Below, in pieces: positions 6,664-48,700 of a stretch of DNA of 64,000 nt. Both the position numbers and the translations under genes were made by a program. The notes beneath the pieces are model-generated. The model was not told the DNA's origin. It ran no database searches and worked only from the letters and a program-made list of their open reading frames with translations. Within the stretch, counting starts at the first letter, position 1. Each line of letters opens with the position of its first letter. This DNA is from a virus: the IMG/VR virus record IMGVR_UViG_3300044712_001509, positions 1 through 64,000 of that record; one strand, written 5' to 3'.

Positions 6664-6666
6664 GTC

Positions 6667-7080
6667 ATGGCGAAGCGAAGCAAGGACAAGGCCAAGTCCC
6701 GACCGCCTGAGAACAGGGGGTCTGAGGGTACCCGCAACGCGGCGGGCCAGTTCGTCAAGGGCGTCTCCGGGAATCCCGGCGGCCGCCCTCGAGGCCAGCG
6801 AGAGTTCGCCGAGCTCCTCCGGTCGATGACCGGCGACATGCAGCTCCAGGCGAAGTTCTGCGTCGACCTCGTCGACGGGAAGGTCAAGAAGGCGCCGGCG
6901 ATGGTGCGGCTCATGGCGGCGCAGTGGCTCACCGACCGGACCATCGGCAAGGCGCCCGACAAGCTCGAGCTCACCGGGAAGGACGGCGGCCCGGTCGAGG
7001 TGAACGACGCCCGCGAGCGCCTGGCGCAGCGCATCGCCGCGCTCCTAAAGGCCACGGGCGAGAAGCCTCCGACCGGATGA
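6667..7080 (+). CDS. DUF5681 protein, putative terminase small subunit
   Basis: The signature GQFVKGVSGNPGGRP (residues about 27-41) is the DUF5681 motif found in phage proteins encoded just before the large terminase. At 137 residues, basic and N-terminally disordered, and overlapping the large subunit by ATGA, it is most likely the small terminase or DNA-recognition subunit. The function is inferred from position and family. Confidence 0.75.
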   Translation: MAKRSKDKAKSRPPENRGSEGTRNAAGQFVKGVSGNPGGRPRGQREFAELLRSMTGDMQLQAKFCVDLVDGKVKKAPAMVRLMAAQWLTDRTIGKAPDKLELTGKDGGPVEVNDARERLAQRIAALLKATGEKPPTG

Positions 7081-8546: not shown

Positions 8547-8548
8547 GG

Positions 8549-8590
8549 GTGCAACCGCGCAGGGTTGTGCAACGCGCGCAAGCGTGCAAC
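8549..8590 (+). promoter_or_regulatory. Three direct GTGCAAC repeats before the portal gene
   Basis: GTGCAAC occurs at 8549-8555, 8567-8573 and 8584-8590, spaced 18 and 17 bases, in the only gap of the packaging gene cluster. The spacing is close to two helical turns, as in operators. The downstream protein begins with a helix-turn-helix, so an autoregulatory DNA or RNA site is conceivable. No function shown. Confidence 0.4.
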
Positions 8591-32346: not shown

Positions 32347-33141
32347 ATGTCGACGACCTACAGCGGCAACCCGGCGAGCGGCGCGCAGAGCCCCGCGATC
32401 CAGATCACGCGCCCCTCGGACGGGGATGCGCTCAACGCGGCCAGCATCAACGCGACGCTGCAGAAGATCGCCGACTACATCGCGTTTCTCCAGGCGCACG
32501 TGGCTCTGATCGACGTCGGTCAGAGTTTCACGGCCGCCCAGGCGTTCCTCGACGCCATCCAGCTCAGCAAGTCGGGCGACCAGTCGATCTTCAAGTATGG
32601 CAGCGGCGCGCTGGAGATCGGTACCCTCATCAACTCGGATCTCGGCTTCAAGACGAACGGCGTCACCAGGGCAGTCCTTCGCGCGTCGGATGGGCGGATC
32701 GGGTCGCTCGCCGATCCGGTTCAGAACCAGGACGCCGACACGATGGCGGCGCGGAACGCGGCGATCACGGCCGGGTTCAACATCTCGACCGCAGCGATCA
32801 CCCCGGGATCGAACTGGTCCGGGGCGCAGTCGATCGTCAAGAAGAGCGGTAGGACCGTCACGGTCATCATCTCCGCGATGGGAGGCGTCGGCGCCTCGTG
32901 GGGTTCCGTCGCCAACGTCCCGGCGGGCTTCCGACCCGGCGCGGACTGGGGATGGCGGTTCCGGGGTGCCATCATCAATTACACTGGGCCCGGGCATTCC
33001 TACGACGCAGACATCTCGATCGAGTCGAACGGAAACGTTTCCGTGGTGGGGTACGACAGCGGAACCGAGTACGCCCCTCCGTTCACCATCGCGAACAGCG
33101 TCGGCGTCCTCGCCTTCGCGACCTATCTGGCCGAGAACTAG
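32347..33141 (+). CDS. Tail fibre protein (264 aa)
   Basis: The N-terminal 60 residues (SDGDALNAASINATLQKIAD) form the baseplate-binding start seen in short fibres, followed by a shaft-like region and a beta-rich globular C-terminus (GRTVTVIISAMGGVGASW, DISIESNGNVSVVGYDSG). No adjacent fibre chaperone was found. Its stop shares CTAG with the convergent minus-strand lipoprotein gene. Confidence 0.78.
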   Translation: MSTTYSGNPASGAQSPAIQITRPSDGDALNAASINATLQKIADYIAFLQAHVALIDVGQSFTAAQAFLDAIQLSKSGDQSIFKYGSGALEIGTLINSDLGFKTNGVTRAVLRASDGRIGSLADPVQNQDADTMAARNAAITAGFNISTAAITPGSNWSGAQSIVKKSGRTVTVIISAMGGVGASWGSVANVPAGFRPGADWGWRFRGAIINYTGPGHSYDADISIESNGNVSVVGYDSGTEYAPPFTIANSVGVLAFATYLAEN

Positions 33142-33473
33142 TCCGCGATCGACGCGCACTGCTCCGTCCGGCTGTACTCGACGGAGATGTCCGGTCCCGT
33201 CCACGGGTCGGCTGCGCTGACGCGCGCGTAGTGCACGTAGAACCACCGCGCCGCCTGGCCGTCCACGCGCAGGCACTCCCAACCGCAGGTCACCTCGACC
33301 GCCGGCCCGCCCGGCGGGGCCTCATCGCGGACCGACGGCGCGTCGCACACGACCACTCCGCCGGTGACGCGCGAGACGGCGGCGGCCTTCGCGGAGAGCC
33401 CGCCGTGGACGTACTCGGTGCCACCGCACGCCACCATCGCCATCGCAGCCAGGGTCACGAGCGCCGTCTTCAT
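33138..33473 (-). CDS. Small lipoprotein (111 aa), moron
   Basis: Signal peptide with lipobox (LAAMAMVAC, Cys 16) followed by 95 residues with three further cysteines. It is transcribed against the late genes, so it could be expressed in the lysogen. Outer-membrane phage lipoproteins of this kind can block superinfection; that role is only an inference here. Confidence 0.72.
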   Translation of the reverse strand: MKTALVTLAAMAMVACGGTEYVHGGLSAKAAAVSRVTGGVVVCDAPSVRDEAPPGGPAVEVTCGWECLRVDGQAARWFYVHYARVSAADPWTGPDISVEYSRTEQCASIAD

Positions 33474-33536: not shown

Positions 33537-33860
33537 CTAACCCTTCGGGCGTATCCGCTCTCGTAGGAGGCGGAGTTCGGCGAGGAGGTGGTCGACGCGG
33601 TCGCGGCGGTCAGGGCGGACATCCGGGCGGGGCCCGCGGGCGTCGCCGGGTAGGGCGAGCCACCGCGCCACCGCCGGCGCGAGCTCGCGCAGTTCATCGA
33701 GGAGCGCCAGCGCGCGGGCCTGGGGCTGGGTGAGGACGTTCTCGATGGGGATGGTCGCGCGGGCCTCCGCCGGCGCGCCGCGAGCGTCGGAGCCGCAGAA
33801 CCGGCACCGGAGGGCGCCCGCGGCGAGGTCGCGGCCGCAGCAGGGGCACCGGCATGGCAC
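33537..33860 (-). CDS. Zinc-ribbon hypothetical protein (107 aa)
   Basis: Starts with CRCPCCGRDLAAGALRCRFC, a double-zinc-ribbon module, then a helical Arg-rich tail. The GTG start lacks an obvious ribosome site. Possibly co-transcribed with the lipoprotein gene downstream. Function unknown. Confidence 0.55.
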   Translation of the reverse strand: MPCRCPCCGRDLAAGALRCRFCGSDARGAPAEARATIPIENVLTQPQARALALLDELRELAPAVARWLALPGDARGPRPDVRPDRRDRVDHLLAELRLLRERIRPKG

Positions 33861-33976: not shown

Positions 33977-34489
33977 ATGCGCCGCTTCCCTGGTCTCCTC
34001 GCATTCGCGGTCGCCGCCGGCCTCTTCGCGGCCGCCTCGCTCGCCTCCCCTGCCTTCGCCGCCAGCGCGGCCGTCCCCTCGTCCACGGCGCAGTCCTCCT
34101 CGTGGAACCCGAGCCCCTCCGCTGCGACGTTCGCGCCGGACGCGATCACCACCGGCGCGCTGACCTCGGGGAACCTCGACACGGGCACGGCCCGCGCGGT
34201 CGACTGCGAGGTCCAGAACGGCCCCTCCGCCGGCGCGCGCACCGTCCAGGCGCAGTGCTGGGATCCGACCTTCACCTCGACCGTGGGCCAGTACCCGACG
34301 ACCCTCGCCGTCGCGACCGGCCAGACCGGATTCCTGCTCTTCGACCCCGCCGCGCCGGGCACGTCGCAGACGAACGTCTACGGCTCGTCGATGCTGGTGT
34401 ACCCGGTCCGGCCGTGCCGCTACCTCACCGTCGGCGCGGCGGCGGCCGCCGGGCCCGCTCGCATCCTCTGCACGCTCCGGTCGCACTGA
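33977..34489 (+). CDS. Secreted protein of unknown function (170 aa)
   Basis: A clear Sec signal peptide (RRFPGLLAFAVAAGLFAAAS, then SPAFA cleavage) is followed by about 135 residues with three cysteines and a beta pattern (CEVQNGPSAGARTVQAQCW, GQYPTTLAVATGQTGFLLF). GAAAGGA precedes the ATG. First gene of the secretome block. No family recognised. Confidence 0.72.
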   Translation: MRRFPGLLAFAVAAGLFAAASLASPAFAASAAVPSSTAQSSSWNPSPSAATFAPDAITTGALTSGNLDTGTARAVDCEVQNGPSAGARTVQAQCWDPTFTSTVGQYPTTLAVATGQTGFLLFDPAAPGTSQTNVYGSSMLVYPVRPCRYLTVGAAAAAGPARILCTLRSH

Positions 34490-34507
34490 GCGGCAAGGGC
34501 TGACGCC

Positions 34508-34538
34508 CGCGCGCCCGGTGGACTTGCCCGGGCGCGCG
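34508..34538 (+). terminator. Perfect inverted repeat before the endolysin gene
   Basis: CGCGCGCCCGG / CCGGGCGCGCG, 11 bp each (34508-34518, 34528-34538), 9-base loop. It could terminate the 33977 transcript, but its loop contains the CTTGC block of motif C, so terminator and promoter functions would overlap. Confidence 0.5.
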
Positions 34539-34552
34539 CGGCGTGCCAACCG
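34523..34552 (+). promoter_or_regulatory. Late-promoter-like motif, copy C
   Basis: CTTGC at 34523-34527, 15 bp, then GTGCCAACCGC from 34543. It overlaps the proposed GTG start of the amidase gene; a second in-frame GTG at 34558 stands at the same distance as the GTG at 16926 stands from copy A. Confidence 0.55.
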
Positions 34553-35145
34553 CTGACGTGGACGCCCCGGCCCGCACGTATCTGCCGATCGAGACGAACC
34601 CGGCGAAGCCCGGCGACTACGCGTCCGGGCGGAAGCTGACGCCCGTCGACACGATCGTCCTGCACACGACCGAGGGCGGGTCGATCGAGGGTGCAACGGA
34701 GTGGTGGGACCGCGAGGACGTCGTCGCGTCCGCGCACTTCGTCATCGACGGCAAGCGGATCGTGCAGCGGGTGGCGGAGGGCGACCGCGCCTACCACTGC
34801 GGGAACGCCGCTATGCACCTCCGGTCCATCGGGATCGAGGTCGTCGGGCACTGCGCCGATCCGCGGATGTGGACCCCGGCGGTGATGGCCCAGCTCGTCG
34901 AGCTCTGCGCCTACCTCATCGGGAACCACCCTCGCATCCCGATCCTGCACCAGGCCGGGCCCGGCATCTGCGGGCACTGCGACGTCCCCGACCCCAAGCA
35001 CCAAGGGCTCTACGGCGGCGCCTCGCACCACACCGACCCCGGGCGCGGCTTTCCCTGGGACCCGTTCCTCCACGCCCTGCGCGTCGCGGTGACGCGCACC
35101 ACCCCGCCCGCGGCCGGGGAGTCCGCCGCGAAGGAGACCCCATGA
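34543..35145 (+). CDS. Endolysin, N-acetylmuramoyl-L-alanine amidase (Amidase_2)
   Basis: 200 residues. It cleaves the lactyl-amide bond between MurNAc and the peptide stem. Catalytic residues read from LHTTEGG (H41), GIEVVGHC (E99) and SHHTDPGRGFPW (H163, D165). No signal peptide or wall-binding domain, so it needs a holin. The GTG at 34543 or 34558 are both possible starts; the fold itself begins at about residue 30. The holin/spanin candidates follow immediately. Confidence 0.9.
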   Translation: MPTADVDAPARTYLPIETNPAKPGDYASGRKLTPVDTIVLHTTEGGSIEGATEWWDREDVVASAHFVIDGKRIVQRVAEGDRAYHCGNAAMHLRSIGIEVVGHCADPRMWTPAVMAQLVELCAYLIGNHPRIPILHQAGPGICGHCDVPDPKHQGLYGGASHHTDPGRGFPWDPFLHALRVAVTRTTPPAAGESAAKETP

Positions 35146-36014
35146 CCCCCCTCGTCGCAGTCCTGTTCGGCCCCTCGTGGAAGACCTCCCTCGCCGGCCT
35201 CCTGAGCGGCGCCGCCGTGGCGGCGGTCGCCTTCGCCCAGAAGACGGGCGGCCTCGCCTGGTACGCCATCGCTGGCGCCCTCGTCCTCGCCGGTCGCCTC
35301 CTCGGGGACTCATCGCCGGGACTGAAGGGCGGCGTCCTCGAGCTCCTCCTCGGCTCGGCGCCCACGAGTTCCGCCGTCGGCGCCCTCACGGCCATCGGGA
35401 CCGCCGTCTACGGCTTCGCGCAGACCCAGAACGGCCTCGGGTGGGCGGCCGTCGCCGCCGGCGTCGCCGCGGTGCTCCGCTTCGCCAAGGTTCCGGGCGT
35501 GGACCGGCCGCAGCTCGCGGCGGTGCCGAGCGACCCGCCCAAGGGGTTCATCCTCCCCCGCGTCGAGCTCGCGGTCGCGGTCCTCATCCTCGCCCTCATG
35601 GCCGCCGCGTTCCTCGTCCTCCCGAGCCGCGCGCGCGGGCAGGAGACGCAGCCGGCCGCCGCGCCCACCGCGCCCCTCGCCATCCAGGTCACGCCGGACC
35701 TCTCGCTCCGCCTCAACGTCTCCGTGGTCGCGGGGTCCTACGACCTGACCCACCGGGCGTGGCTGGGCCAGGCGCCGATCACGGGCCTGTACGCCCTGAC
35801 GTCGAAGCGGCTCCTCGACGCGGGCGTCGCCGTCGGCGGGTCGCTCGCGTTCGACACCTCCTCGAGGCCGTCCGGCGAGCTCAACGGCGGCCTCGTCAGC
35901 CCCAAGCTCGTGATCTCGCCGGCGCTCGCGCTCCACGGCGCGGTGCTCTACGCGAGGCGGTTCGGCCCCGACGCGGCGAACCTGCTCCGCATCGCGCCCA
36001 CGCTCGAGTTCTAG
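35142..36014 (+). CDS. Multi-span membrane protein, holin-like with outer-membrane-like C-terminus
   Basis: 290 residues. Four short hydrophobic helices occupy residues about 12-115 (LAGLLSGAAVAAVAFAQK, LAWYAIAGALVLAGRLL and two more), as in holins. A fifth (AVAVLILALMAAAFLVLPSR, about 145-165) resembles a signal peptide. The last 110 residues have alternating-hydrophobicity strands and end in Phe (APTLEF), the mark of outer-membrane beta-barrels. The ATG overlaps the endolysin stop by four bases. Holin is likely; the C-terminal part is unexplained. Confidence 0.65.
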   Translation: MTPLVAVLFGPSWKTSLAGLLSGAAVAAVAFAQKTGGLAWYAIAGALVLAGRLLGDSSPGLKGGVLELLLGSAPTSSAVGALTAIGTAVYGFAQTQNGLGWAAVAAGVAAVLRFAKVPGVDRPQLAAVPSDPPKGFILPRVELAVAVLILALMAAAFLVLPSRARGQETQPAAAPTAPLAIQVTPDLSLRLNVSVVAGSYDLTHRAWLGQAPITGLYALTSKRLLDAGVAVGGSLAFDTSSRPSGELNGGLVSPKLVISPALALHGAVLYARRFGPDAANLLRIAPTLEF

Positions 36015-36017
36015 GCC

Positions 36018-36350
36018 GTGGACGCCGCCGTCGTCACCACCATCGCCAGCTCGGTTCCGGACTCCGGGGCCGCGGTCGCCATCGTCTTCGGCGTGCTGGC
36101 GGTGCTGGGCGGCGCGTTCGGCTTCCCGTGGTGGTGGGGCCCGGCGTGCAGCCTCGCCCGGGCCGCCTGGCAGGGCCGGCGTGCGCTTGCGGACGTGAAG
36201 GTCGAGCAGGCCCCGGAGCCGATCTCCGACGGCGGCGCCGCCGAGGATCGCCTCATCCGGCCCGCGCCCGCGCCGGCGCCCCACTACGAGGTGACCGACC
36301 CGCTGCGGCCGATCGAGCCCGGCGGCGGGTCGACCGGGGGGATGAGCTGA
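36018..36350 (+). CDS. Single-span membrane protein, candidate inner-membrane spanin
   Basis: An N-terminal transmembrane helix (AVAIVFGVLAVLGGAFGFPW, residues about 19-38) with a 70-residue Pro-rich periplasmic or cytoplasmic tail. Located in the lysis cassette directly before a lipoprotein gene, it is the best i-spanin candidate, though it lacks the usual coiled coil. Confidence 0.55.
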   Translation: MDAAVVTTIASSVPDSGAAVAIVFGVLAVLGGAFGFPWWWGPACSLARAAWQGRRALADVKVEQAPEPISDGGAAEDRLIRPAPAPAPHYEVTDPLRPIEPGGGSTGGMS

Positions 36351-36748
36351 TGCCCCGCCTCCTCGCCGCCATCGTCCTGCTCGCCGGGTGCTCGAGCGCG
36401 CGCGTCGCGAGCAGGTCCGAGCTCGACCGCTCGCCGGTCGGGCAGTTCGGGATCGTGCGGCCGCCGCCCATCGGGTGCTCGGAGACGTCCGGCTCGCCCT
36501 GGAACGCCGCGCGGTGGGTCTCGATCTGGGACGGCGACCACGGCTGGGGCTACTGCTCCGTCAACGCCGTCACCCCCGACCGCGTGCGGTGCGTCTTCGA
36601 CCACTGCGAGCGCCTCGAGTCCGGCGCGTGGCGCTGCGGCGCGCCGTCCACCTTCCCCGCCTGGGCGGCGGCGGCTCCAGGGTCTCACCCCGGGGTCGGT
36701 GCGGCGAGTGGGTCGCCGCCGCCCTCTTCCTCCGCGAGGAGCCCATGA
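36350..36748 (+). CDS. Lipoprotein, candidate outer-membrane spanin
   Basis: Lipobox LLAGC (Cys 14) near the N-terminus, then 118 residues with several Cys and Trp and a Pro/Ser-rich end. TGATG overlap with the preceding single-span protein suggests a paired function such as Rz/Rz1. It is longer than most o-spanins, so other envelope roles are possible. Confidence 0.6.
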   Translation: MPRLLAAIVLLAGCSSARVASRSELDRSPVGQFGIVRPPPIGCSETSGSPWNAARWVSIWDGDHGWGYCSVNAVTPDRVRCVFDHCERLESGAWRCGAPSTFPAWAAAAPGSHPGVGAASGSPPPSSSARSP

Positions 36749-37011
36749 AGTTCAACCCGCGCTCGTTCCTGTTCGGTGTCCTCGCCGCGATCGTCCCCAC
36801 CGTCGGCGCGGCCTGGGCGTTCGCCACCCTCGCCGCCGATCACGTCCTGCAGCCCCACCTCGAGGGCGCGAAGGCGCGCATCGGCGTCATGTGCACGCTC
36901 GCGGACGTCCAGAACCGGAAGCTGAAGGCGATCTGCGATCGAACCCAGGCCGCCTGCGACACGTCGATGGACGAGGCGCTGGTGGCCGCCTGCCACGAGG
37001 CCACGAAGTAG
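36745..37011 (+). CDS. Small exported or membrane-anchored protein (88 aa)
   Basis: N-terminal hydrophobic stretch (SFLFGVLAAIVPTVGAAWAF) then a periplasm-type helical domain with four cysteines (CTLADV, ICDR, ACDT, ACHE), probably two disulfides. ATGA overlap with the lipoprotein gene. Unknown role in lysis or envelope. Confidence 0.6.
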   Translation: MKFNPRSFLFGVLAAIVPTVGAAWAFATLAADHVLQPHLEGAKARIGVMCTLADVQNRKLKAICDRTQAACDTSMDEALVAACHEATK

Positions 37012-37020
37012 GAGGACACC

Positions 37021-37359
37021 ATGGGCGCAGTCGATCTCCAGGAACTCCACGTCCGCGCGATGCGCGGCACCGCCCAGCGGCTAGGGCCTCCCGTCGCCGG
37101 CAAGGGCTTCACGCTCACGATGGGCGCCGGCGACGCCACCCAGGACCTCGAGGCCGGCGCCGTCTACCGGATCGCCACCGGCGCGCAGCCCGCCTTCATC
37201 GGCGTCGCCGACCAGGCGACCGCGTCGAATCGCGAGTACCTCGCCGCCAACTCCGAGACGTTCTGGCAGACCCCGGCCGCCGGGACCGTGACCCTCCACT
37301 ACCTGCAGGCCGGCACCGCCGGCTCGCTCTACGTCTCGAAGCACGACGACGTCGGCTGA
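37021..37359 (+). CDS. Hypothetical protein, possible virion component (112 aa)
   Basis: No signal peptide. Beta-rich with GKGFTLTMGAGDATQDLEAG, VYRIATGAQPAFIGVADQ and GTVTLHYLQAGTAGSLYVSK, in the style of a capsid-decoration or fibre-tip sandwich. GGAGGACACC precedes the ATG. Confidence 0.6.
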   Translation: MGAVDLQELHVRAMRGTAQRLGPPVAGKGFTLTMGAGDATQDLEAGAVYRIATGAQPAFIGVADQATASNREYLAANSETFWQTPAAGTVTLHYLQAGTAGSLYVSKHDDVG

Positions 37360-37422
37360 CCGCTCACCCGGGCCCACGGCCCATCCCGCAGGGCGCAAGC
37401 CCGGAAGCGAAAGGAGCAGCAC

Positions 37423-38070
37423 ATGAAGCGCATCGCCCTCATCGCCATCGCCGCCGCGGCCCTCATCGGGCCCGGCCTGTCCGTCCACTTCCTCCCCGAG
37501 CCGACCGCGGACCAGCTCGTGGCTCCCTTCGCGACCATCAGCGCCAGCTTCGACGCCTACGCGGTTCCGACCGCGGGCATGACCGACCAGGGCAAGAAGG
37601 ACTACCTGGACGGCATGAACGTCACGACCAACGCCTTCGCCGTGATGTTCCTGACGAGCGCCTCGACGGCCTGGTCGGGGTCCACCACGATCGCCAGCAT
37701 CTCCGGGGCGGAGGTCGCGTCCTTCGGGTCGAACGCGTCCTGCACTGGGAGCGGCTCCCCGATCGCGTGCTGCACCGGCACCGGCACCGGCAACTGCGTG
37801 TACACCGCGGGCGGCACCGGGTATCCGCTCTCCGGCCGGTCGTCCTCGATCTCGGCGAACCACGCCTGCGTGACCTGGAACAACCTCCTGTTCAGCGCGA
37901 CTCCTTCCCAGGTCCGGGCCATGGCGCTCGTCAATCCGGCCACGAGTCACGTCCTGAGCATCCACTGCACGGACGGCACGGCGAGCGGCTCGCCCTGCGC
38001 GGCGGACACCACGAACCAGGGCGGCACCCTCGGCATCACGATGCCCAGCGGCCTCAACTGCGTGAACTGA
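37423..38070 (+). CDS. Secreted Cys-rich protein (215 aa)
   Basis: Signal peptide (KRIALIAIAAAALIGPGLSV) after a strong GAAAGGAGCAGCAC site. The mature part has a vicinal Cys cluster (CTGSGSPIACCTGTGTGNC) and a strand-rich C-terminus. In composition it resembles pilin-like or surface proteins of proteobacteria, but no family is certain. Confidence 0.65.
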   Translation: MKRIALIAIAAAALIGPGLSVHFLPEPTADQLVAPFATISASFDAYAVPTAGMTDQGKKDYLDGMNVTTNAFAVMFLTSASTAWSGSTTIASISGAEVASFGSNASCTGSGSPIACCTGTGTGNCVYTAGGTGYPLSGRSSSISANHACVTWNNLLFSATPSQVRAMALVNPATSHVLSIHCTDGTASGSPCAADTTNQGGTLGITMPSGLNCVN

Positions 38071-38080
38071 GGCGGCCCCA

Positions 38081-38266
38081 GTGCTCAGGACCGCGCTCGT
38101 CGCGGTGGCGCTCCTCGCCGGGTGCGCCACCGCGAAGCCGCAGCATCAGGTCGCCACCATCGCCCCGGCGAGGGCAGAGGCGGTCGCGGGGCAGGTCTTC
38201 GGGCCGCCCCGCGACGTGGTGGTCAGGATTCAGCCGGCCTACGCTACCGGCGCCCAGAACCGCTGA
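38081..38266 (+). CDS. Small lipoprotein (61 aa)
   Basis: GTG start, lipobox VALLAGC (Cys 15), and only 46 mature residues. It lies between the Cys-rich secreted protein and the SGNH esterase. The size suits an o-spanin-like or anchor role. Confidence 0.6.
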   Translation: MLRTALVAVALLAGCATAKPQHQVATIAPARAEAVAGQVFGPPRDVVVRIQPAYATGAQNR

Positions 38267-38277
38267 CGGAGGACACG

Positions 38278-41130
38278 ATGCGCCGCCTCGCCCTTCTCGC
38301 GCTGGCCGCAGGGGCGGCCATCGTCGCCCTCTCGACCTCGGCGCTCCAGCCCTACAAGGCGCCGGTCGACTACCACGACCCGACCGCCGTCTCGAACGAG
38401 CCCATCACCGTCACGACCGAGGACGGCGTGCCGGTGGCCTATCTCGCCGAGGCGCCGCTCGACCCGGCGCAGGGCGGGACCATCTCGGTCACGCTCGGCG
38501 GCGCGGGATTCACGCGCGTCACCGGGACGCCGGCCGCGGGCCAGTACCGGATCCGAACCCAGGTGCTCCCGGGCGGTGCCTTGGAGTACATGCCGGTCCT
38601 GGTTCTCAACGCGGCCGACCTCGGCAAGACCGGGACGGCCTCGTACTGGGGCACCGGTTCCATCGTTCACCGCGGCACGTTCCGCTCGCTCATCGGCAAC
38701 GCGTGGGACCTGATGGGCGTGGCGGTGCAAACCGCCGACTGCACGACCTCGCCGCCAGCCGACCAGATCACCTACGACCAGTGGAAGTCGGGGGTCTCCG
38801 GCCACTGGGCGTGCTGGCAGATCCCGTCCTCGAGCGGCTCCTCGACCTCCACGGTGACGGTGGCCTACGGCGCCGGGTACGCCGGGGTCATCTCGGTCCA
38901 GGCCAACGACGCCGTGACGCTGCTCCAGGCAGCCGGGACGGGCGTGGCGGGCGCTATCACGGCGACCGCCAGCTCCGCCGGAGGTTCGAACGCGACCATC
39001 CTCGTGAGCTACGCCGCCGGCGCTGCCGGGATCGTCACGGCGGTCGTGTCGGCGTCTCGCGCGATGCCGGCGGCGACCGGAACGGGGGCCGCGGGGGTGC
39101 TCTCGACCTCGCTGGGGTTGGCGCGCACGCTCGTGGGCGCCACGGGGGCGGGGGCCGCGGGCACCATCACGGCCACGGCGAACAGCAGCGGAACCGCGCT
39201 CGCGATCCGCTCGGGCTTCCCGGTGGTCGTGAGCCAGGACACGCGGTCGGTCCCGTACACGATCACCACGGCGAGTTTCAACGCCAACGCGGGAGACACC
39301 CTCGTCGCGTTCGGCACGGCGTACACGCTCCCGGTCCTGACCGGCTCCTCGCTGCGCTGGGTGCCCCGTGCGCTCGCGCGTGCGCAGAACGACCAGGCGC
39401 GCCAGGTGGCGGTCTACACGGCGGTCGTCCCGGCCGGCGGCGTGACCGGCGAGACCATCTCATTGACGGTGCCCACCGTGCAGGAGTGGGACACCTCGCC
39501 CATCACGTCCACGACCGCGTCGGCCTCGCAGATCCAGGTCTTCGCGTTCGACAACTCGGCGGGCGTCGGGAGCGTGAAGTGGCGCGGGGACGTGGTGGCC
39601 GGCGACACGCCCGCGCTCACGATGAAGGCGAACGCTACGGGGTCGATGTTCCTCGTGGGCGGCGGGATCTGGGACATCGCGTGGACGCCAGACGCGAACA
39701 CGACGCTGGTGGGGTCCGCGTTCAACGGGCACCTAGGTGTGATGCGGCGGACCGCTGCGGCGCCCGGAAACGTCACCATCGGAGCCACTGGCACGGCCGC
39801 CTACTGGGCGCTGGCCGGCATCGAGGTTCTCCCGTCCACGGCGACGGCACCGACAAAGAAACTCCTCGTGTTGGGCGACTCGGGGGTGGAGTCGAACAAC
39901 TCCACGACCCCGTGGCCCCCGCTGGTGCAGGAGTCCCTCGGCGCAGACTGGGCGCTCTACGATGGCGGCGTGTGGTGGGCTGTCTCCCCGCACGTCCGCA
40001 CGCGCTGGGCGAGCACCTGGAGCAAGGAGACGTGGGATATGGTGGTGCTGCACGTCGGTTCGAACGACGTGACCAACCACGGCGTGCTCTACACGACCGA
40101 CTGGGCAGCGGTCGCCTCGTCCATTGCGACCGCGGTCGGTCAGAACCGCTACATCGTGCAGACGATCCAGGCAACGCAGTGGTACGGGATGTCGGGGGCG
40201 GGGGCCTACGACACGGCCGACGCCGCGCAGCGCTCCAACGCGCCCTCCGGCGCGCACTTCTTCGACTGGGCGGCTGCGCTCGGGACGAGCGGCCCCACGG
40301 TGATGTCCACGTACATGTCTTCGGACGGCCAGCACTGGAACGACTCGGGCAACGCGCACATCGCGGACGAGTTTGTCACGGAGATCAACTCGCTGATGGC
40401 GCTGCCCGCGAACCCAGTTCAGCCGGCATGGGGTGCAGCCGGTGCCGTTGCCAACGTGGACGGCTCGGGGAGCATCAGTCTGGCCAGTCCCACCGGCGTG
40501 ACTGCCGGGGACATCCTCATCGCGGCCATCGGTGGGGGTTACACGTCGCTACCGCCATCCACGATCACGGACGGAAACGGCAAGGCGTGGGCGCGCAAGG
40601 GCGCCATCAGTGGAGATGCGGGCGCCGGGATGGTCGTGTACTCGCGGCGCGCGGACGGCGGGGAAGCGTCCAGCACCACGTTCACGGGGCTCAGCACCGC
40701 GGGTCTGGAGGGGGTGGCGTTCCGGGTCAGCGGTGTCACGGCAACAGGTGACGGGTTTGATCCTGGGTTCAACTCCACGGGCGCCGCCCCGGGCCTCGGC
40801 TCGTTCTCGGACAAGCTGGATTTCTCTGCCTCTGCCGCAGGCGCGGTCGCGGCGGACAAGGATCTCATCGTCGTGGCCTGCGCGGTGCGGGCGACCGACA
40901 GCGGTGCTACCGGTTCCATCACCAGCGTCACCCCGCCGACGGGACCAGCGACGACCCTTGGCGCGAGCGGGTGGACTGGGAGCGCTGTCTCAGGCTTCGG
41001 CATGATCGGAATTGGCGTCTGGTATGGCACGAAGTCGGGCTCGGGCAACTCGCTGAACGCCCCGTTCTCGTGGGTGGGCCAGGGGGACGGGCCAGGTACA
41101 ACCTGCGTGCAGATGGCGTTGAAGCAGTGA
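38278..41130 (+). CDS. Secreted SGNH/GDSL esterase with repeat module (950 aa)
   Basis: Signal peptide (residues 1-24). Residues about 190-310 contain several Ala/Gly/Thr repeats of the type GATGxGAAGTITATA. A jelly-roll-like region leads to an SGNH hydrolase: GDS with catalytic Ser 535, GSND at 594-597, and the D683-x-x-H686 pair (DGQH). The C-terminal 250 residues form another beta domain. SGNH enzymes in phages deacetylate polysaccharides. An intact triad is visible. A Sec signal on a depolymerase-type phage protein is unusual; export by the host is implied. Confidence 0.82.
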   Translation: MRRLALLALAAGAAIVALSTSALQPYKAPVDYHDPTAVSNEPITVTTEDGVPVAYLAEAPLDPAQGGTISVTLGGAGFTRVTGTPAAGQYRIRTQVLPGGALEYMPVLVLNAADLGKTGTASYWGTGSIVHRGTFRSLIGNAWDLMGVAVQTADCTTSPPADQITYDQWKSGVSGHWACWQIPSSSGSSTSTVTVAYGAGYAGVISVQANDAVTLLQAAGTGVAGAITATASSAGGSNATILVSYAAGAAGIVTAVVSASRAMPAATGTGAAGVLSTSLGLARTLVGATGAGAAGTITATANSSGTALAIRSGFPVVVSQDTRSVPYTITTASFNANAGDTLVAFGTAYTLPVLTGSSLRWVPRALARAQNDQARQVAVYTAVVPAGGVTGETISLTVPTVQEWDTSPITSTTASASQIQVFAFDNSAGVGSVKWRGDVVAGDTPALTMKANATGSMFLVGGGIWDIAWTPDANTTLVGSAFNGHLGVMRRTAAAPGNVTIGATGTAAYWALAGIEVLPSTATAPTKKLLVLGDSGVESNNSTTPWPPLVQESLGADWALYDGGVWWAVSPHVRTRWASTWSKETWDMVVLHVGSNDVTNHGVLYTTDWAAVASSIATAVGQNRYIVQTIQATQWYGMSGAGAYDTADAAQRSNAPSGAHFFDWAAALGTSGPTVMSTYMSSDGQHWNDSGNAHIADEFVTEINSLMALPANPVQPAWGAAGAVANVDGSGSISLASPTGVTAGDILIAAIGGGYTSLPPSTITDGNGKAWARKGAISGDAGAGMVVYSRRADGGEASSTTFTGLSTAGLEGVAFRVSGVTATGDGFDPGFNSTGAAPGLGSFSDKLDFSASAAGAVAADKDLIVVACAVRATDSGATGSITSVTPPTGPATTLGASGWTGSAVSGFGMIGIGVWYGTKSGSGNSLNAPFSWVGQGDGPGTTCVQMALKQ

Positions 41131-41138
41131 GGGACGCG

Positions 41139-42614
41139 ATGCGCGCGCTCGCCACGGCTCTCCTGATCTCGTTCGCCACGGTCGCGTCCGCCGCGCCCGC
41201 CACGGCGCACGACGAGATATGGCAGGGGTACGTCCCGGCCTTCGACGACACCACGACCGCCGTCCGGCTGGGGATGGACCCGGCTCCGGCCGGGACCTGG
41301 GCTGGCGGCGCCTACAAGGACTCGCGCACAGTCTGGGGCACGATCGCCGGGCGGGGCCCGATGTACGTCGTGAGCCGGAAGCGCGGGTTCACGAACATGG
41401 CGCCGGCCATCGCGACGGTCGGGCCTCTCGACGCCAACGGCTACGGGCGTTCCGTGGCGCCGTTCTACGGCGCGAACAAGTGGATCGGGTCCACCTTCGC
41501 GCCTGACCAGATCAGTGAGGTGACCTACAACCCGATGTTCGACGCCGACTCGGGGAACGCTGTCCGCATGAGCGACGCCGGGTTCTACGGGTCGGCCATG
41601 TGGTACTCGAACACGAACGGCCCCTACGACCCTGGCGCCCTGGGGCAGCTTGAGTCCGGGTGGGTGGTCTGCCAGGTCTTCCGCTACAACGGCTCGACCA
41701 AGACCGTCCTCGCGCAGTTCCTCGTCAACGGCTGGCTCTACGCCTCGGACTGGACATCGTTCCTGTCGCTTCAGGTGTGGGGCCACAACCCGGTCCACCT
41801 CCGGCTCGTGCTGAAGCAGGCGAACGAGCTGGCTCTCGCCGGCGCCGGCCTCGACGATGGCACGAGCCACGGAACGCTGCCGGGGCCGGGGACGCTGCTG
41901 CCCTACGCCCCGTGGGGCTCGGGCGGCGTCTACTTTACCTATGCCGGCTCGAATCATGCGTGGGCGACGGGGGACTACACCACCGGCGGCGGCGGGACGG
42001 TCGGAGGCGACGGGACGCACTGGACTGGCTGGGCGAACGCGCAGGCCCCGATCACCATGCGCGACGGGTACGTGATCGTGCCCTACGGCGACCCGCAGAC
42101 GATCCTCCCGCAGATCGCCTCCCCGCCCGACGACTCCGCGATCATCCCGATCGGCGACCCACTGTGGAACATCAACGGCCAACGCAGCCTCGTGGTCTGG
42201 GAGGGGACCGACTCGTCGGCCGGCGCCCTGCTCTCGGGGCAGCCCGGCATCTGGGGCGACCCGTTGACCACGAGTTCCGGACCCAACGGCGGCGTGATGA
42301 AGTTCTGGGCGCGCGACATAGCGGACCGCCTCACGGCGAGGTACGTCTCGACCGTCGGCAGCACGAAGACCATCGGCGGCTACCGCGCGCCGGGCGACAC
42401 GATCACGGTCTCGGGCTGGACGGTCTCCTACCCCGACTCGATCTCCTGGCAGGCGACGACCACGGCTACCGTCTCCTCGGCCACAGCTACCGACGCTGCC
42501 ACGAGCGAGTCGGCCACGGTGAGCATCCCATCGGCCTCGGGCATCACCGGAGTGCAGGACTCGCGTGTGTTCGACGGCTCCTCGTGGGCGCCGTCCTGGC
42601 CCAAGGCGCTCTGA
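41139..42614 (+). CDS. Secreted protein of unknown function (491 aa)
   Basis: Signal peptide (RALATALLISFATVASAAPA, cleavage about 20). The mature protein is Trp/Tyr/Gly-rich and strand-rich throughout (GPMYVVSRKRGFTNMAPAIA, VHLRLVLKQANELALAGAG), similar in feel to carbohydrate-binding or concanavalin-like folds, and ends in a Thr/Ser-rich stretch. It lies between the esterase and the lyase candidate, so a glycan-related role is a reasonable inference only. Confidence 0.7.
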   Translation: MRALATALLISFATVASAAPATAHDEIWQGYVPAFDDTTTAVRLGMDPAPAGTWAGGAYKDSRTVWGTIAGRGPMYVVSRKRGFTNMAPAIATVGPLDANGYGRSVAPFYGANKWIGSTFAPDQISEVTYNPMFDADSGNAVRMSDAGFYGSAMWYSNTNGPYDPGALGQLESGWVVCQVFRYNGSTKTVLAQFLVNGWLYASDWTSFLSLQVWGHNPVHLRLVLKQANELALAGAGLDDGTSHGTLPGPGTLLPYAPWGSGGVYFTYAGSNHAWATGDYTTGGGGTVGGDGTHWTGWANAQAPITMRDGYVIVPYGDPQTILPQIASPPDDSAIIPIGDPLWNINGQRSLVVWEGTDSSAGALLSGQPGIWGDPLTTSSGPNGGVMKFWARDIADRLTARYVSTVGSTKTIGGYRAPGDTITVSGWTVSYPDSISWQATTTATVSSATATDAATSESATVSIPSASGITGVQDSRVFDGSSWAPSWPKAL

Positions 42615-42625
42615 TCGGAGGATGC

Positions 42626-45600
42626 GTGAAGCGGCTCCTCATCGCCCTGCTCCTCCTGGCTCCGGCCGCGGCGTCGGCGCAGACGACCACGCACGGGATC
42701 ACGATCCCCTCGGGGCACCCGCGCATCCTGTTCTCGGACCCGACGCGGCTCGCGGCAGCGCGCGCGTGGTACGCCGCGCACCCGTTCACCCGCGACGGCG
42801 ACCCGGTGTGGAAAGGCCCCTACGTCTACGGGCAGATGGCGCTTCGCTCCCTTCTCAGCCAGAACGCCGCGGACGGATGCACCGAGGCGATCGTCTGGCT
42901 CAAGGCGTACGACATCACGAACCCGCAGCACCTCACCGCCTACAACTACCTCGGCGGACAGGACTACGTGCGGTGGGCGCTGCCCTACGGCCCGATGGTC
43001 TACGATTGGTGCTACCAGTGGATGACCCCGGCGGACCGCGCCGCCGCGATCACGATGTGGAACGCGAACCAGACCGCCGCGGAGGCGTACGACCAGCCGC
43101 TCTTTGACCTTGGCGGGATCGACTTCAACAACGGCTCCCGCGCCGGCCCGTTCGGCAACTACTACACCGGCATGGAGGCGGCGCATTGGTACTGGGCGCT
43201 GGCGTCCTACGATCCCGACCTGAACGCGACGGTGGCCGAGTCGTGGCTCCACAACGCCGCAGACCTCCGCATGGTCGGGGAGTTCGAGCCCTACGCGAAC
43301 ACGAGCATGGCGGGCGGCATCAACTCCGAGAGCGGCCATTACGGGCAGTACGCCCGCGACTACCGGTTGATCCCGCTGGAGTCCGCGCGGCAGATGGGGC
43401 GCGATGTCTTTGCGGAGACGCCTTGGTGGCTCGCGTCGGTGTACGCGATGGTCTACGCGGCCCCACCCGCGCAGAGCACCCAGTACCACGGGCCGTGGGG
43501 GACCACGCCAGCATCCACGACCGCTTCATGGGACTACTTCCCGTTCGGAGACGAGGAGTTCTGGAACACGAACGACGGTGGCGGCGATCAGGCGAAGTAC
43601 GCCTCGCTCGGCAACTTCATGACGTGGGCAGCGACGCGCTGGAACGGCACGAACGCGGGCGGCTTCGCTGCGCAGTTCCTCGCGTCCGTCGCGCCCAGCG
43701 CGGACTACTATCACCAAGCGTACGCCAACCTCCCGGCGGCACGCTCGTTCACGAACCTACCGCTCGACTACTACGCGAAGGGCCCGGGATTCTTCTACGG
43801 GCACTCGCACAGACCGTGGACGAGCGGCACCTCATTCGCGATCCAGATGGGATGGGGCTGGGTTGAGTCGGGGCACGGTCACGCCGACTATGGGACGTGG
43901 CAGCTCTGGCGCGGCGGTCGCTGGGTCAGCCGCGAGACGACCTACTTCGCGGGTACTGGGCTCGCGGGCTACGGCGGGTCGGGCACGGCGACGACCTTTG
44001 ACACGGTCATGCACAACGGTTTGCTCGTCGGGGGCCAGGGGAGCAGCACGAGCCAGCCCGGCCGCAACCGACAGTTCCCGGTCCCGACGCGCGTCGAGTC
44101 TCAGCCGGGCTACGCCTTCGCCTCGGTGAACATCGGGCCGACCTATACGAACGTCACGAGCGCGGTTCGCGATTTCGTCTTCGTCCGCGATCTGGAGGCA
44201 CTGATCATCCTCGACCGCGTGAACGCCTCGTCAGCCCTGACGCGCGCCTCGACGGTCCACTGCGAGCAGCAGTGGGCATCCACGAGTTCCTCGCGTCGGA
44301 CGTGTTCGCTCACGACCGGGACTGCCCAGACTCTCGTGGTGGACTCCCTCCTCCCGGCGGCGCCGACCTTCCGCTCCATCTACGAGAACGGCGGCAGCGA
44401 GTCGAACCATATCGGGCAGTACCGCCTGGAGATCGAGGACAGCCCCGGCACCGCACAGTCCTACCTGCTGACCGTGGTGCAGGCCAACGGAGCGTCGCCG
44501 TTCACGCCGACGATCACCACCAACGACACGACGACCATCGTCGTCGACCTCAAGAGCGACGGCACACACCTCGTCACGTTCGCCAAGGGCATGACGAGCA
44601 CGGGCGGCAGCGTCACGATCTCGGGCACGACAACGAACCTCCGCTCCGACGTCCAGGGGATGACGGTCTCGACCGACGGCGTGGTCTGGGACGGCCAGGC
44701 GCCCACCACCACGAACGTCACCGTGTCCATCGTCGGCGCCTCCGGGGCGGGCGTGGCGGGGCAGATCGTGACGCCGAACCGCACCGCGACGCTCGTGGGC
44801 GCGACTGGCACGGGCGTGGCCGGAACGGTGACGGCGACGGCCTCCGGCAGCGGGACCGGGACGACGTGGTACGTGGGGCCCGGCCGGACCTACACCACCG
44901 TCGCCGCAGTGCAGGGTCTCGTCCAGCCCGGGGACCTCGTCCTCATCGACGGCGGGAACACCTACGGCTCGACCACGATCACCGGCGGCGGCACGGCCGG
45001 CAACCCGGTGACCTACCGCGGCACAGGCAGTGGAGCCGGGCGCCCCACCTTCTCGGGCGGCACGAACACGATCCAGATCGACGCCGATCACGTCGTGGTG
45101 GACAACGTCATCGTGACCGGCGGATCCTCGCGCTGCATCTTCTACACGAGCGACGACGTCACGGTGCGCAACTCGCACATCACCGCCTGCCCGCAGCACG
45201 GCATCCTGTCCTCGGACCTCGGCTCGGGCTCGGCCGTGGTCGAGTACAACGAGATCGACCACTGCGGCTCGGGCTCGACGCGCCACCCCGTGTACGTCAC
45301 CTCCGACCAGTCGGCGCACCCGGGCGCGGTCTTCACCTTCAGGTACAACTACACGCACGATCAGAACGGCGGCCACACGCTCAAGACGCGCGCCCAGCGC
45401 ACCGAGATCCTCTACAACTGGATGGAGGGCTCGTTCTACCGCGACCTCGAGTGCGTCGGCGCCGACACCCAAGGCACGGGGGCGGTGAAGCTCTACCCCC
45501 AGCACTGCGAGCTCATCGGCAACGTGATCCGCAAGACGACGGCGAACGTGCAGGCGGGGCTCCGCTTCGGCACCGACGGCACGAGCGGCAGCAACGGCCA

Positions 45601-47173
45601 GGTCCGCCTCGTGAACAACACGATCCTACGGGAAGCCGGGACGGGGCCGACCATCTACCTGATGGGCGACACCACGGGCGGGCTGGAGTCCATCGAGCTG
45701 CACAACAACGTCTTCTACGCGACGAACGGCACGCCCGACGTGCTCTCCGACGTCGACCTCGGCGCGTACTGGGTCGCGGGTCGTCAGGTCGCCGGGTCGA
45801 ACAACTGGACGGAGACGGGGAGCACCGAGGTCCCGAGCGAGTGGACCGGCACGGTCACGGGTGCCGACCCCGGGTTCACGACCTACCTGTCGAACATGAC
45901 GCCGACCTCGGGGAGCGCGCTGCGCGACGCGGGCGGCTCCGCCACATCCTACCCGGCGGGCCACCAGTTCCCCTCGCCGCTCACGACGCTGCCGCAGTAC
46001 ATGCCCGCTACGCAGACCGTCGTCGCCTCCGCCGCGGCGCGGCCGACGAGCGGGACCATCGACATCGGCGCGTTCGAGTACAACGCCGGCGGCGGCACGA
46101 ACGTGACCGCGAGCCCGGCCGGCGCAACGGGGACGGGCGTCGCTGGCGTCCTATCGTCCGCGGGCGGCGCGACGCGCACCCTGGCCGTCGCCGCGGGGGC
46201 GGGGGCTTCGGGGACGCTCGTCACCGCGGCGGGTGCGACGAGCGCCATCGCCTCGGCCGCCGGGGACGGCACCGCGGGCCAACTCTCCGTCGTGGCCCAG
46301 GGCACCGCCGCCTGGTCGGGCCCTGTGATCCCGCGCGGGGCCCGCGTCGGGCTGTCCTACCTCGCCGGTCCCTGGTCCGCCCCGATCCCGGTCAGCTCGA
46401 GCCCCGCCGGCGCGGTCGGCACCGCGGTGGCGGGCGTCATCACCAGCTCCGCCGGCGCCGTCTCGGCGCTCGCGGGCGCGAGCTCCACGGGCGCGGCGGG
46501 CGTCATCGTCGCCGCCGTCTCGGCGCTCGCCCCCCTCGTGGCCGCGGCGGGCGTCGGCACGGCGGGCGCCCTCTCCACCTCCGTCGGGATCGTCGCGACG
46601 CCGGCCGGGGCTTCCGCGGCGGGGCTCGCCGGCATCATCACGGCGGTCGGCAACACGGTCGGCGGATCCACCGCTGTTCTCTCCGGTGCGTCGGCGACCG
46701 GGGCGGCGGCGTCGGTGCTCTCGGCGGCCGGGGCGCTCAACTCTGTGGCGGGCGCCTCTACGACCGGGGCGGCATCAACGATTGCCTCGGTGGCCAGTGC
46801 TGTTGCCCCGATCGCCGGCGCAGGTGGAGTCGGCTCGGCGGGGGTCCTGACCAGCATCAGCTCGGCCGTCGCCACCGTGGTTGGAGCGTCCGCTCCGGGC
46901 TACGCTGGAACGGTGACGACCACCGCGAGTGGCCCGACCGGCGCAGTGACGGTCAGCATCGCCGCCGCGATCTCCGTGGGGGTCGCTGGACAGGCGGTAA
47001 CCGCCGCCGGAGCCGTCGTGACCCTGGCTGGCGCCGCCGGAACCGGGTATGCCGCAGCGCTGCCCAGCCCTTGGGGCGACCTCGACCACGCGCCGAGGTT
47101 CATCGTCAAGACGCCGCGCCCGGGCATCACCGTGCCGGTCCCGCGCCCGGCCATCACCGTCGAAGGGAGGTAG
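42626..47173 (+). CDS. Giant secreted heparinase-II/III-like and beta-helix protein (1515 aa)
   Basis: GTG start with GGAGGATGC. Signal peptide 1-19 (LLIALLLLAPAAASAQ). Residues about 25-690 resemble heparinase II/III-type lyases: an alpha toroid with NYYTGMEAAHWYWALAS, then GHGHADYG (H417, H419, D421) and WRGGRWVSRETTYF. Two repeat units follow (about 700-742), then a right-handed beta-helix (750-1155; GPGRTYTTVAAVQGLVQPGD, closing GTIDIGAFEY), then about a dozen Ala/Gly repeats (1160-1475) and a Pro tail with PGITVPVPRPAITV. The likely role is breakdown of an acidic surface polysaccharide. Confidence 0.78.
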   Translation: MKRLLIALLLLAPAAASAQTTTHGITIPSGHPRILFSDPTRLAAARAWYAAHPFTRDGDPVWKGPYVYGQMALRSLLSQNAADGCTEAIVWLKAYDITNPQHLTAYNYLGGQDYVRWALPYGPMVYDWCYQWMTPADRAAAITMWNANQTAAEAYDQPLFDLGGIDFNNGSRAGPFGNYYTGMEAAHWYWALASYDPDLNATVAESWLHNAADLRMVGEFEPYANTSMAGGINSESGHYGQYARDYRLIPLESARQMGRDVFAETPWWLASVYAMVYAAPPAQSTQYHGPWGTTPASTTASWDYFPFGDEEFWNTNDGGGDQAKYASLGNFMTWAATRWNGTNAGGFAAQFLASVAPSADYYHQAYANLPAARSFTNLPLDYYAKGPGFFYGHSHRPWTSGTSFAIQMGWGWVESGHGHADYGTWQLWRGGRWVSRETTYFAGTGLAGYGGSGTATTFDTVMHNGLLVGGQGSSTSQPGRNRQFPVPTRVESQPGYAFASVNIGPTYTNVTSAVRDFVFVRDLEALIILDRVNASSALTRASTVHCEQQWASTSSSRRTCSLTTGTAQTLVVDSLLPAAPTFRSIYENGGSESNHIGQYRLEIEDSPGTAQSYLLTVVQANGASPFTPTITTNDTTTIVVDLKSDGTHLVTFAKGMTSTGGSVTISGTTTNLRSDVQGMTVSTDGVVWDGQAPTTTNVTVSIVGASGAGVAGQIVTPNRTATLVGATGTGVAGTVTATASGSGTGTTWYVGPGRTYTTVAAVQGLVQPGDLVLIDGGNTYGSTTITGGGTAGNPVTYRGTGSGAGRPTFSGGTNTIQIDADHVVVDNVIVTGGSSRCIFYTSDDVTVRNSHITACPQHGILSSDLGSGSAVVEYNEIDHCGSGSTRHPVYVTSDQSAHPGAVFTFRYNYTHDQNGGHTLKTRAQRTEILYNWMEGSFYRDLECVGADTQGTGAVKLYPQHCELIGNVIRKTTANVQAGLRFGTDGTSGSNGQVRLVNNTILREAGTGPTIYLMGDTTGGLESIELHNNVFYATNGTPDVLSDVDLGAYWVAGRQVAGSNNWTETGSTEVPSEWTGTVTGADPGFTTYLSNMTPTSGSALRDAGGSATSYPAGHQFPSPLTTLPQYMPATQTVVASAAARPTSGTIDIGAFEYNAGGGTNVTASPAGATGTGVAGVLSSAGGATRTLAVAAGAGASGTLVTAAGATSAIASAAGDGTAGQLSVVAQGTAAWSGPVIPRGARVGLSYLAGPWSAPIPVSSSPAGAVGTAVAGVITSSAGAVSALAGASSTGAAGVIVAAVSALAPLVAAAGVGTAGALSTSVGIVATPAGASAAGLAGIITAVGNTVGGSTAVLSGASATGAAASVLSAAGALNSVAGASTTGAASTIASVASAVAPIAGAGGVGSAGVLTSISSAVATVVGASAPGYAGTVTTTASGPTGAVTVSIAAAISVGVAGQAVTAAGAVVTLAGAAGTGYAAALPSPWGDLDHAPRFIVKTPRPGITVPVPRPAITVEGR
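46108..47060 (+). repeat. Degenerate Ala/Gly-rich coding repeats
   Basis: In frame, the end of the giant protein repeats units of about 27-28 residues built round GATGTGVAG / GASSTGAAG followed by a short Val/Ile-Ser/Thr-Ala strand. About a dozen copies are visible. The same unit occurs in the SGNH protein (DNA about 38850-39200) and once before the beta-helix (44728-44850). Confidence 0.75.
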
Positions 47174-47178
47174 CCTCC

Positions 47179-47694
47179 ATGCGCCGTCTCGTCATCGCCG
47201 CCGTGCTCGCCCTCGCCGCCAACGCGGCCCGGGCCGACACCTACGTCTTCCCGACCCTTCGCATCGCCCGGGGCTACCAGGGGCCGGTCGTCGTCGACGT
47301 CCAGTGGTCGGACGGCACCCCGCGGCCGGCCGCCGCCATCGTCGGGGTCCTGAACGTCTACCGCTCGAGTTCGACGTCGGGGGCGACCGGGGCCCTGCTC
47401 CTGACCAAGGACATCGACCCCGCCGGCGGGTCCAACCCCACGAACCGGATGGTGATCTCCATCGCCTCGACCGACCTGACGGCGCCCGGGACCTACTACG
47501 CCGAGATCCAGCTCGCGGAGGCGCTCGTCACCGACGTCCTGCACGGTCTCGTGACGGTGGAAGGGCAGCGGGTACCGGCGGGCGTCGGGCTCCTCGATGA
47601 TCCGGGGCCGGTGCGCGAGGCGGTAGCGTTCGCGACCCCGCCCGAGGTTGAGCGGCGGTGGCGCGGCGGAGGTCCCACCGGCGGGATGGGGTGA
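47179..47694 (+). CDS. Secreted protein closing the late operon (171 aa)
   Basis: Signal peptide (RRLVIAAVLALAANAARA). The mature part is one beta-sandwich-like domain (PVVVDVQWSDGTPRPAAAIV, GTYYAEIQLAEALVTDVLHG), similar in layout to fibre or baseplate-upper modules, with a basic tail ending in Gly. Starts after GGGAGGTAGCCTCC. Unknown function. Confidence 0.65.
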   Translation: MRRLVIAAVLALAANAARADTYVFPTLRIARGYQGPVVVDVQWSDGTPRPAAAIVGVLNVYRSSSTSGATGALLLTKDIDPAGGSNPTNRMVISIASTDLTAPGTYYAEIQLAEALVTDVLHGLVTVEGQRVPAGVGLLDDPGPVREAVAFATPPEVERRWRGGGPTGGMG

Positions 47695-48567: not shown

Positions 48568-48654
48568 GGGGACGGTCCGTCCCTGGTGGGGCGCACCCCG
48601 TACTCGCGCCGTACTCGCGCTGCTCGGCGAGCCTCGCCACCAGCGGTTTCAGAG

Positions 48655-48700
48655 TGAGGCGCCTGGGAATCGAACCCAGAACCACAGACCCTATAGGGGC
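48655..48700 (-). other. Putative attP core, tRNA 3'-end-like sequence
   Basis: Read on the minus strand this gives a complete T-arm (CTGGG-TTCGATT-CCCAG, 48679-48663), a 7-base acceptor strand GCGCCTC and discriminator A (48662-48655), preceded by a variable loop and an anticodon-stem 3' strand (48689-48680). The 5' half of a tRNA is missing. It lies 100 bases beyond the integrase stop, the classic attP arrangement for tRNA-site integration. Confidence 0.7.

Follow-up and report, generated by a model that had tools for sequence, protein, structure and literature searches.

A late phage gene block joining a lysis cassette to predicted Sec-exported fiber-type modules and candidate polysaccharide-active enzymes

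Gene content and export signals of the late block

We analyzed a window of 64,000 of the 65,278 bases (72% GC) in virus record IMGVR_UViG_3300044712_001509, focusing on a block of genes at positions 33977-47694, most of which encode proteins with predicted export signals. The window comes from a temperate contractile-tail phage: it carries genes for a portal, a Mu-type head protease, a gpT capsid, a sheath, baseplate wedge J, and tail protein I. The sheath is 43% identical to that of Myxococcus phage Mx4 and 46% identical to that of Meiothermus phage MMP7, and the capsid is 43% identical to that of Mx4. A short tail fiber gene (32347) precedes the block; past the block lie a 3′-terminal tRNA fragment and a gene for a tyrosine integrase. 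The block splits in two, a lysis cassette (34543-37011) and an exported cargo set (37423-47694). Its genes, whose starts and ends were fixed on sequence and third-position GC, are listed below; percentages are identities to a related phage contig, L001 (G001).

33977-34489, + strand: signal-peptide protein with 4 cysteines
34543-35145, + strand: endolysin, N-acetylmuramoyl-L-alanine amidase (Pfam Amidase_2, 4.5e-21; PHROG endolysin families; 80%)
35142-36014, + strand: multi-transmembrane holin-like protein with a C-terminal beta-rich extension, recognized from sequence (54% over the C-terminal part)
36018-36350, + strand: single-transmembrane lysis-cassette protein with the C terminus GGGSTGGMS (67%)
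36350-36748, + strand: cysteine-rich lipoprotein (LAGC), outer-membrane spanin-like lysis candidate (77-80%)
36745-37011, + strand: protein with an N-terminal membrane anchor or signal and 4 cysteines, inner-membrane spanin-like candidate (90%)
37021-37359, + strand: small protein without a signal
37423-38070, + strand: signal-peptide protein with 8 cysteines, in a slot resembling that of a signal-peptide Gp80 fiber protein in L001
38081-38266, + strand: small lipoprotein (LAGC), weakly Rz1-like (Pfam LysC, E 0.03, below the cutoff)
38278-41130, + strand: signal peptide, 22-residue repeats, beta domain, and SGNH/GDSL hydrolase (Pfam Lipase_GDSL_2, 1.8e-5)
41139-42614, + strand: signal-peptide protein of 491 residues
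42626-47173, + strand: signal peptide (GTG start), heparinase II/III-like domain, beta-helix, and 22-residue repeats
47179-47694, + strand: signal peptide, BppU_N-type baseplate immunoglobulin (Ig) domain, and C terminus GGGPTGGMG (from AlphaFold2/Foldseek and a chain of relatives)

The original prediction named nine of these proteins as carrying a Sec signal or lipobox. We applied a rule-based test that asked either for a lipobox or for a charged n-region, a hydrophobic core, and small residues ahead of the cleavage site. All nine N termini (33977, 36350, 36745, 37423, 38081, 38278, 41139, 42626, and 47179) passed, confirming the observation. Within the block, 10 of 13 genes pass, the tenth being the multi-transmembrane holin-like 35142. 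Among controls, the rule was passed by none of the 24 upstream phage genes, by 7 of the 299 remaining open reading frames (ORFs) in the window, by 3 of 133 genes, annotated or inspected, from nine comparator phage loci, and by none of 31 coding ORFs sampled from upstream regions in the closest relative. The Fisher P value for the block is 8e-7 relative to the upstream genes and 9e-11 relative to the comparators. When the first 40 residues were shuffled, 0 to 22% of sequences passed per gene. LAGC lipoboxes are present in 36350 and 38081, the cleavage site of 37423 is weak, and the N terminus of 36745 could equally well be a membrane anchor that stays uncleaved. Shine-Dalgarno-like sequences lie upstream of 35142, 36745, 37021, 37423, 38278, 41139, 42626, and 47179 (e.g., GGGAGGT at 47179 and AAAGGAG at 37423), which supports the assigned start codons and hence translation of the export signals. 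The signals are kept in L001 on the SGNH, heparinase, BppU-type, and lipoproteins, with the enzymes at 37 to 38% identity overall. We dropped a general cysteine excess as a property of the exported proteins, because only the small ones are cysteine rich.

Intergenic distances from 34543 to 47694 range from −4 to 11 nucleotides, except for 63 before 37423, and a consensus scan, itself weak at 72% GC, found no promoter-like or forward terminator-like site in this interval. Given the tight spacing and the lack of such sites, the cargo genes (37423-47694) are most simply read as transcribed late, in one operon with the lysis genes. The predicted late position directly behind the lysis genes, on the same strand, was thus borne out. 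On the other hand, the picture of one secreted set of nine proteins held for the cargo at 37423-47694 only; the 34543-37011 part is simply a lysis cassette, and membrane insertion or export is expected of lysis genes. The genes at 36350-37011 are lysis-type genes and not secreted effectors.

In the lysis cassette, the 35142-36014 product fuses a beta-rich C-terminal region, with an aromatic last residue, to its holin-like N-terminal part, which hints at a domain located in the outer membrane or periplasm. In MMP7, the two comparable portions seem to be encoded separately (L008, 18534 and 18988). The otherwise unrelated proteins 36018-36350 and 47179-47694 share a C-terminal peptide, GGGxTGGMx, and likewise in L001; at 36018, it may merely encode the ribosome-binding site of the following gene.

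Fiber-type modules and candidate enzymes in the cargo

The last protein of the block, 47179, matches nothing in Pfam, PF10651 (BppU_N) included, up to an E value of 10. An AlphaFold2 model of its mature form is an Ig-like beta-sandwich with a mean predicted local distance difference test (pLDDT) score of 61.6 and about 72 in the core. In Foldseek, the top viral matches of the model are BppU_N and minor tail proteins; its PDB structural matches include the Douge and 80alpha baseplates, with generic Ig folds scoring equally well. A chain of relatives leads to the same family: 47179 is 41% identical to a protein of phage L003, which is 34% identical to one of phage L012 (E 9e-5 within the candidate set), and the L012 protein matches BppU_N at 30.7 bits (cutoff, 23.1).

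In the window and in L001, L003, and L012, a repeat-protein gene with a period of 20 to 23 residues lies directly upstream of the BppU-type gene. The repeat protein ends in an RPxIxV tail in the window, L001, and L003; in the window, this is the C-terminal tail of 42626, TPRPGITVPVPRPAITVEGR (a PRPxITV type). In L003, which is unrelated and has a DUF2163-type tail protein, lysis-type genes again precede the repeat and BppU-type pair; the BppU-type member lacks a signal there, and the signal of the repeat protein is doubtful. In L012, the pair lies between a tail fiber assembly chaperone gene and the major capsid gene, without signals. L003 also carries, behind M15-endolysin and holin-like genes, two fiber-like genes with clear signal peptides (6085-7809 and 7806-8549).

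A second module type comes from L001, where the product of 3982-4656 matches Pfam Gp80 (5.6e-14) with a domain that starts at residue 26, directly after the predicted cleavage point. An L003 protein also matches Gp80, as well as PDB chain 8jou_a. Gp80 genes in comparator phage records have no signal peptide, and a viral scan with the L001 protein found only itself. Among the window's own exported proteins, none matches Gp80 (PF23140), and 37423 has no Pfam or PHROG match. Modules belonging elsewhere to virions are thus fused here to predicted Sec signals. The original prediction of a secreted system as opposed to virion parts thus stands as to the export signals; several of the exported proteins belong to virion fiber or baseplate families, so the two are not opposites.

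The same prediction proposed two polysaccharide-active proteins, which remains plausible: the catalytic motifs of 38278 and 42626 are intact. In 38278, the GDS, GxND, and DxxH blocks all occur in order (GDSG, GSND, and DGQHW) and are conserved in L001. The heparinase-like protein 42626 matches PF07940 (Hepar_II_III_C) at 26.8 bits in a protein search and 30.6 bits in a DNA search (cutoff, 24) and contains GHGHADYG; the GHGHxD motif is found in both the window and L001 proteins. A heparinase structure model was unusable (pLDDT 32.6). Searches by tblastn in named phages found no relatives of the heparinase, SGNH, or BppU-type proteins and gave only chance-level matches for 41139. Scans of genome contigs yielded no bacterial relatives of the heparinase protein or of the BppU alignment, no plasmid relatives of the BppU-type protein were found, and PDB sequence searches with the BppU, heparinase, and SGNH proteins returned nothing informative.

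Turnover between relatives and the flanks of the block

Looking for the block elsewhere, as the original prediction advised, recovered the full cassette in L001 and related pairs in L003 and L012. Between the window and L001, baseplate J and tail I are 81 to 82% identical and the BppU-type proteins 74%, compared to 32% for the tail fiber, 32% for the heparinase protein, and 52% for the SGNH core. Along the stretch from baseplate to BppU, identity drops on the fiber, an opposite-strand lipoprotein, and the exported enzymes, with neighbors at 74 to 90%. These drops are as expected for genes that would face the host surface, with turnover resembling that of the tail fiber. Five genes (33977, 37021, 37423, 38081, and 41139) are missing from L001. 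The enzyme order differs between the two phages, and the RPxIxV tail, which is on the heparinase protein in the window, is on the SGNH protein in L001, suggesting that parts are exchanged as modules. The head genes of the pair (34 to 41%) are far less alike than the baseplate and lysis genes (80 to 90%), and the segment from tail tip to lysis seems to have been swapped between phages as a unit.

Three features flank the block:

32347-33141, + strand: tail fiber, last gene of the tail module, recognized from a weak PHROG minor-tail match (5.8e-4) and the identity profile
33138-33473, − strand: lipoprotein, lipobox MVAC (33% identical to a relative at 308-601, − strand, in L001)
48653-48690, − strand: partial tRNA 3′ end (TpsiC arm), a probable attP recognized from sequence, beside the integrase gene at 48801-49982

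The lipoprotein gene, which the original prediction had overlooked, overlaps the end of the tail fiber gene on the opposite strand and adjoins a zinc-ribbon protein gene (33537-33857, − strand; 39% identity in L001). It is a possible candidate for a receptor-blocking or superinfection-exclusion moron. The probable attP lies ∼1 kb past the cargo, between the late genes and the integrase; ARAGORN found no complete tRNA. At the corresponding position, the L001 contig ends in a sequence resembling a tRNA.

Possible roles of the exported cargo and known systems

The original prediction held that the late position and export together favor action at the release stage. Lysis frees cytoplasmic proteins regardless of a signal peptide, so none is needed for such action, and this argument is not supported. 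Export points instead to action before lysis or to folding outside the cytoplasm. We therefore tentatively favor a reading in which a lysis cassette is joined to late Sec-exported cargo, built from fiber and baseplate modules and enzymes, that serves as a receptor-destroying or -masking kit. It builds on the predicted export signals, the late operon, the intact enzyme motifs, the virion-like modules, and the fiber-like turnover, and from these we infer secretion itself, a partnership, a target, and a benefit. In the latent period, the proteins would leave the cytoplasm, with the repeat protein and the Ig protein of BppU type operating as a pair; the exported proteins would bind and cut the phage's own adsorption glycan on the infected cell, which would be stripped or masked before the burst. 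Progeny would be spared loss on debris, and superinfecting relatives would be kept off. The lipoprotein gene that abuts the fiber gene, a layout resembling that of llp genes (below), fits such a kit.

Several points weigh against this proposal. The Lipase_GDSL_2 score of 38278 (25.7 bits) is below the gathering score of 32.9, the Beta_helix match of 42626 is just below its gathering score, and so is the match of the L001 heparinase relative. Low identity to L001 is not unique to the exported genes, being seen also in the head genes; the full cassette is found in two phages only, with related pairs in two more, and turnover is estimated from one pair. Export might serve folding instead of early action, large proteins may be stuck in a diderm periplasm without a second export step, and the cysteine-rich proteins could be part of lysis.

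The main rival, unlikely in our estimate, is that the exported proteins are virion components that fold in the periplasm, perhaps with disulfides, and complete assembly by joining a fiberless virion at lysis. In relatives, modules of the BppU_N, Gp80, and repeat types belong to the virion, the L012 pair is in a virion operon, the window's tail module has a single short fiber gene (32347), and T4 and P22 fibers or tailspikes attach to finished particles. Conversely, the BppU-type proteins of L003 and L012 have no signal, 47179 has no cysteines, and we know of no tailed phage with a tail made from Sec-exported parts; the non-subscription literature searched likewise gave no tailed phage with exported fiber modules or Sec-exported tail parts. 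Post-export attachment to virions would be a more surprising outcome than a masking kit; the general claim it would carry, that appendages of a double-stranded DNA tailed phage are Sec exported, folded outside, and added after export, with assembly split over two compartments, is in our view unlikely.

Lysogenic conversion, in which enzymes and adhesins made by the lysogen alter its surface or help it to feed on polysaccharide, would suit the signal peptides, the gene content that varies between relatives, and the location, since conversion genes often sit as these do, with lysis genes on one side and attP/integrase on the other. It leaves the virion-type modules unexplained and sits poorly with cargo on the same strand as the lysis genes, tightly spaced with them and without a recognizable promoter or terminator, although the scan was weak at this GC content; the lysogen surface remodeling that had been proposed is weakened accordingly, and we consider conversion quite unlikely. 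Less probable still is the earlier idea of a release aid, in which the enzymes, together with the spanins, would weaken the outer envelope or matrix and let progeny get out and disperse. The adjacent lysis genes, the conserved lipoproteins, and the lyase and esterase motifs agree with it, but lysis would free cytoplasmic enzymes without signal peptides, and fiber-type modules indicate binding over diffusion. It is very improbable that most of the N termini are false positives or anchors that stay uncleaved, on ordinary virion proteins of the cell interior. The prediction is rule based only, and GC-rich, Ala/Leu-rich coding favors hydrophobic stretches, as the shuffles that pass show; however, hardly any same-phage or comparator genes pass, L001 keeps the signals on diverged proteins, and the Gp80 match picks up where cleavage of the signal is predicted.

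The usual view is that tailed phages build their tails entirely in the cytoplasm and that phage polysaccharide enzymes work from the virion. A conserved late exported cassette of fiber type would mean either that the host surface is modified before lysis with the phage's own adsorption parts or that tails are completed outside the cytoplasm. Fiber-like and enzyme domains in phage genomes also need a signal peptide check before they are assigned to virions, and a signal peptide plus a fiber domain behind lysis genes could mark more cases.

The closest known systems share some features with this phage. Like the BppU N-terminal domain (PF10651) of siphophage baseplates (TP901-1 and the 80alpha FibU/FibL rings), 47179 has an Ig-type domain of ∼110 residues, a likeness resting on the Foldseek matches to BppU_N and minor tail proteins and on the L012 relative above the Pfam cutoff; unlike in those baseplates, the window and L001 copies carry a Sec signal and lie behind lysis genes, and 47179 itself has no Pfam match. 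Gp80, fiber I of podophage GP4 (PF23140; PDB 8jou), is matched by the L001 exported protein and the L003 protein, and the L001 copy differs from comparator Gp80 genes in its N-terminal signal peptide. Virion-bound depolymerases and tailspikes also aim lyase, esterase, and beta-helix parts at polysaccharide, but they act from the virion without a Sec signal. Mx4 and MMP7 share a related contractile-tail module, but their inspected late regions have no equivalent exported cargo, and only the MMP7 holin-like protein passes the export rule. In the literature searched, the exported phage proteins were endolysins and Llp. In cells infected by T5 or BF23, Llp lipoproteins block the receptor, and the llp gene adjoins the receptor-binding gene (PMC4728585). 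Phage-encoded export in the infected cell and a lipoprotein gene (33138-33473) next to a fiber gene recur here, a likeness of arrangement without a shown sequence relation; unlike with Llp, enzymes and fiber-type modules are added. By this analogy, the logic we favor would be that of T5/BF23 Llp or of a receptor-destroying enzyme, here assembled from fiber parts.

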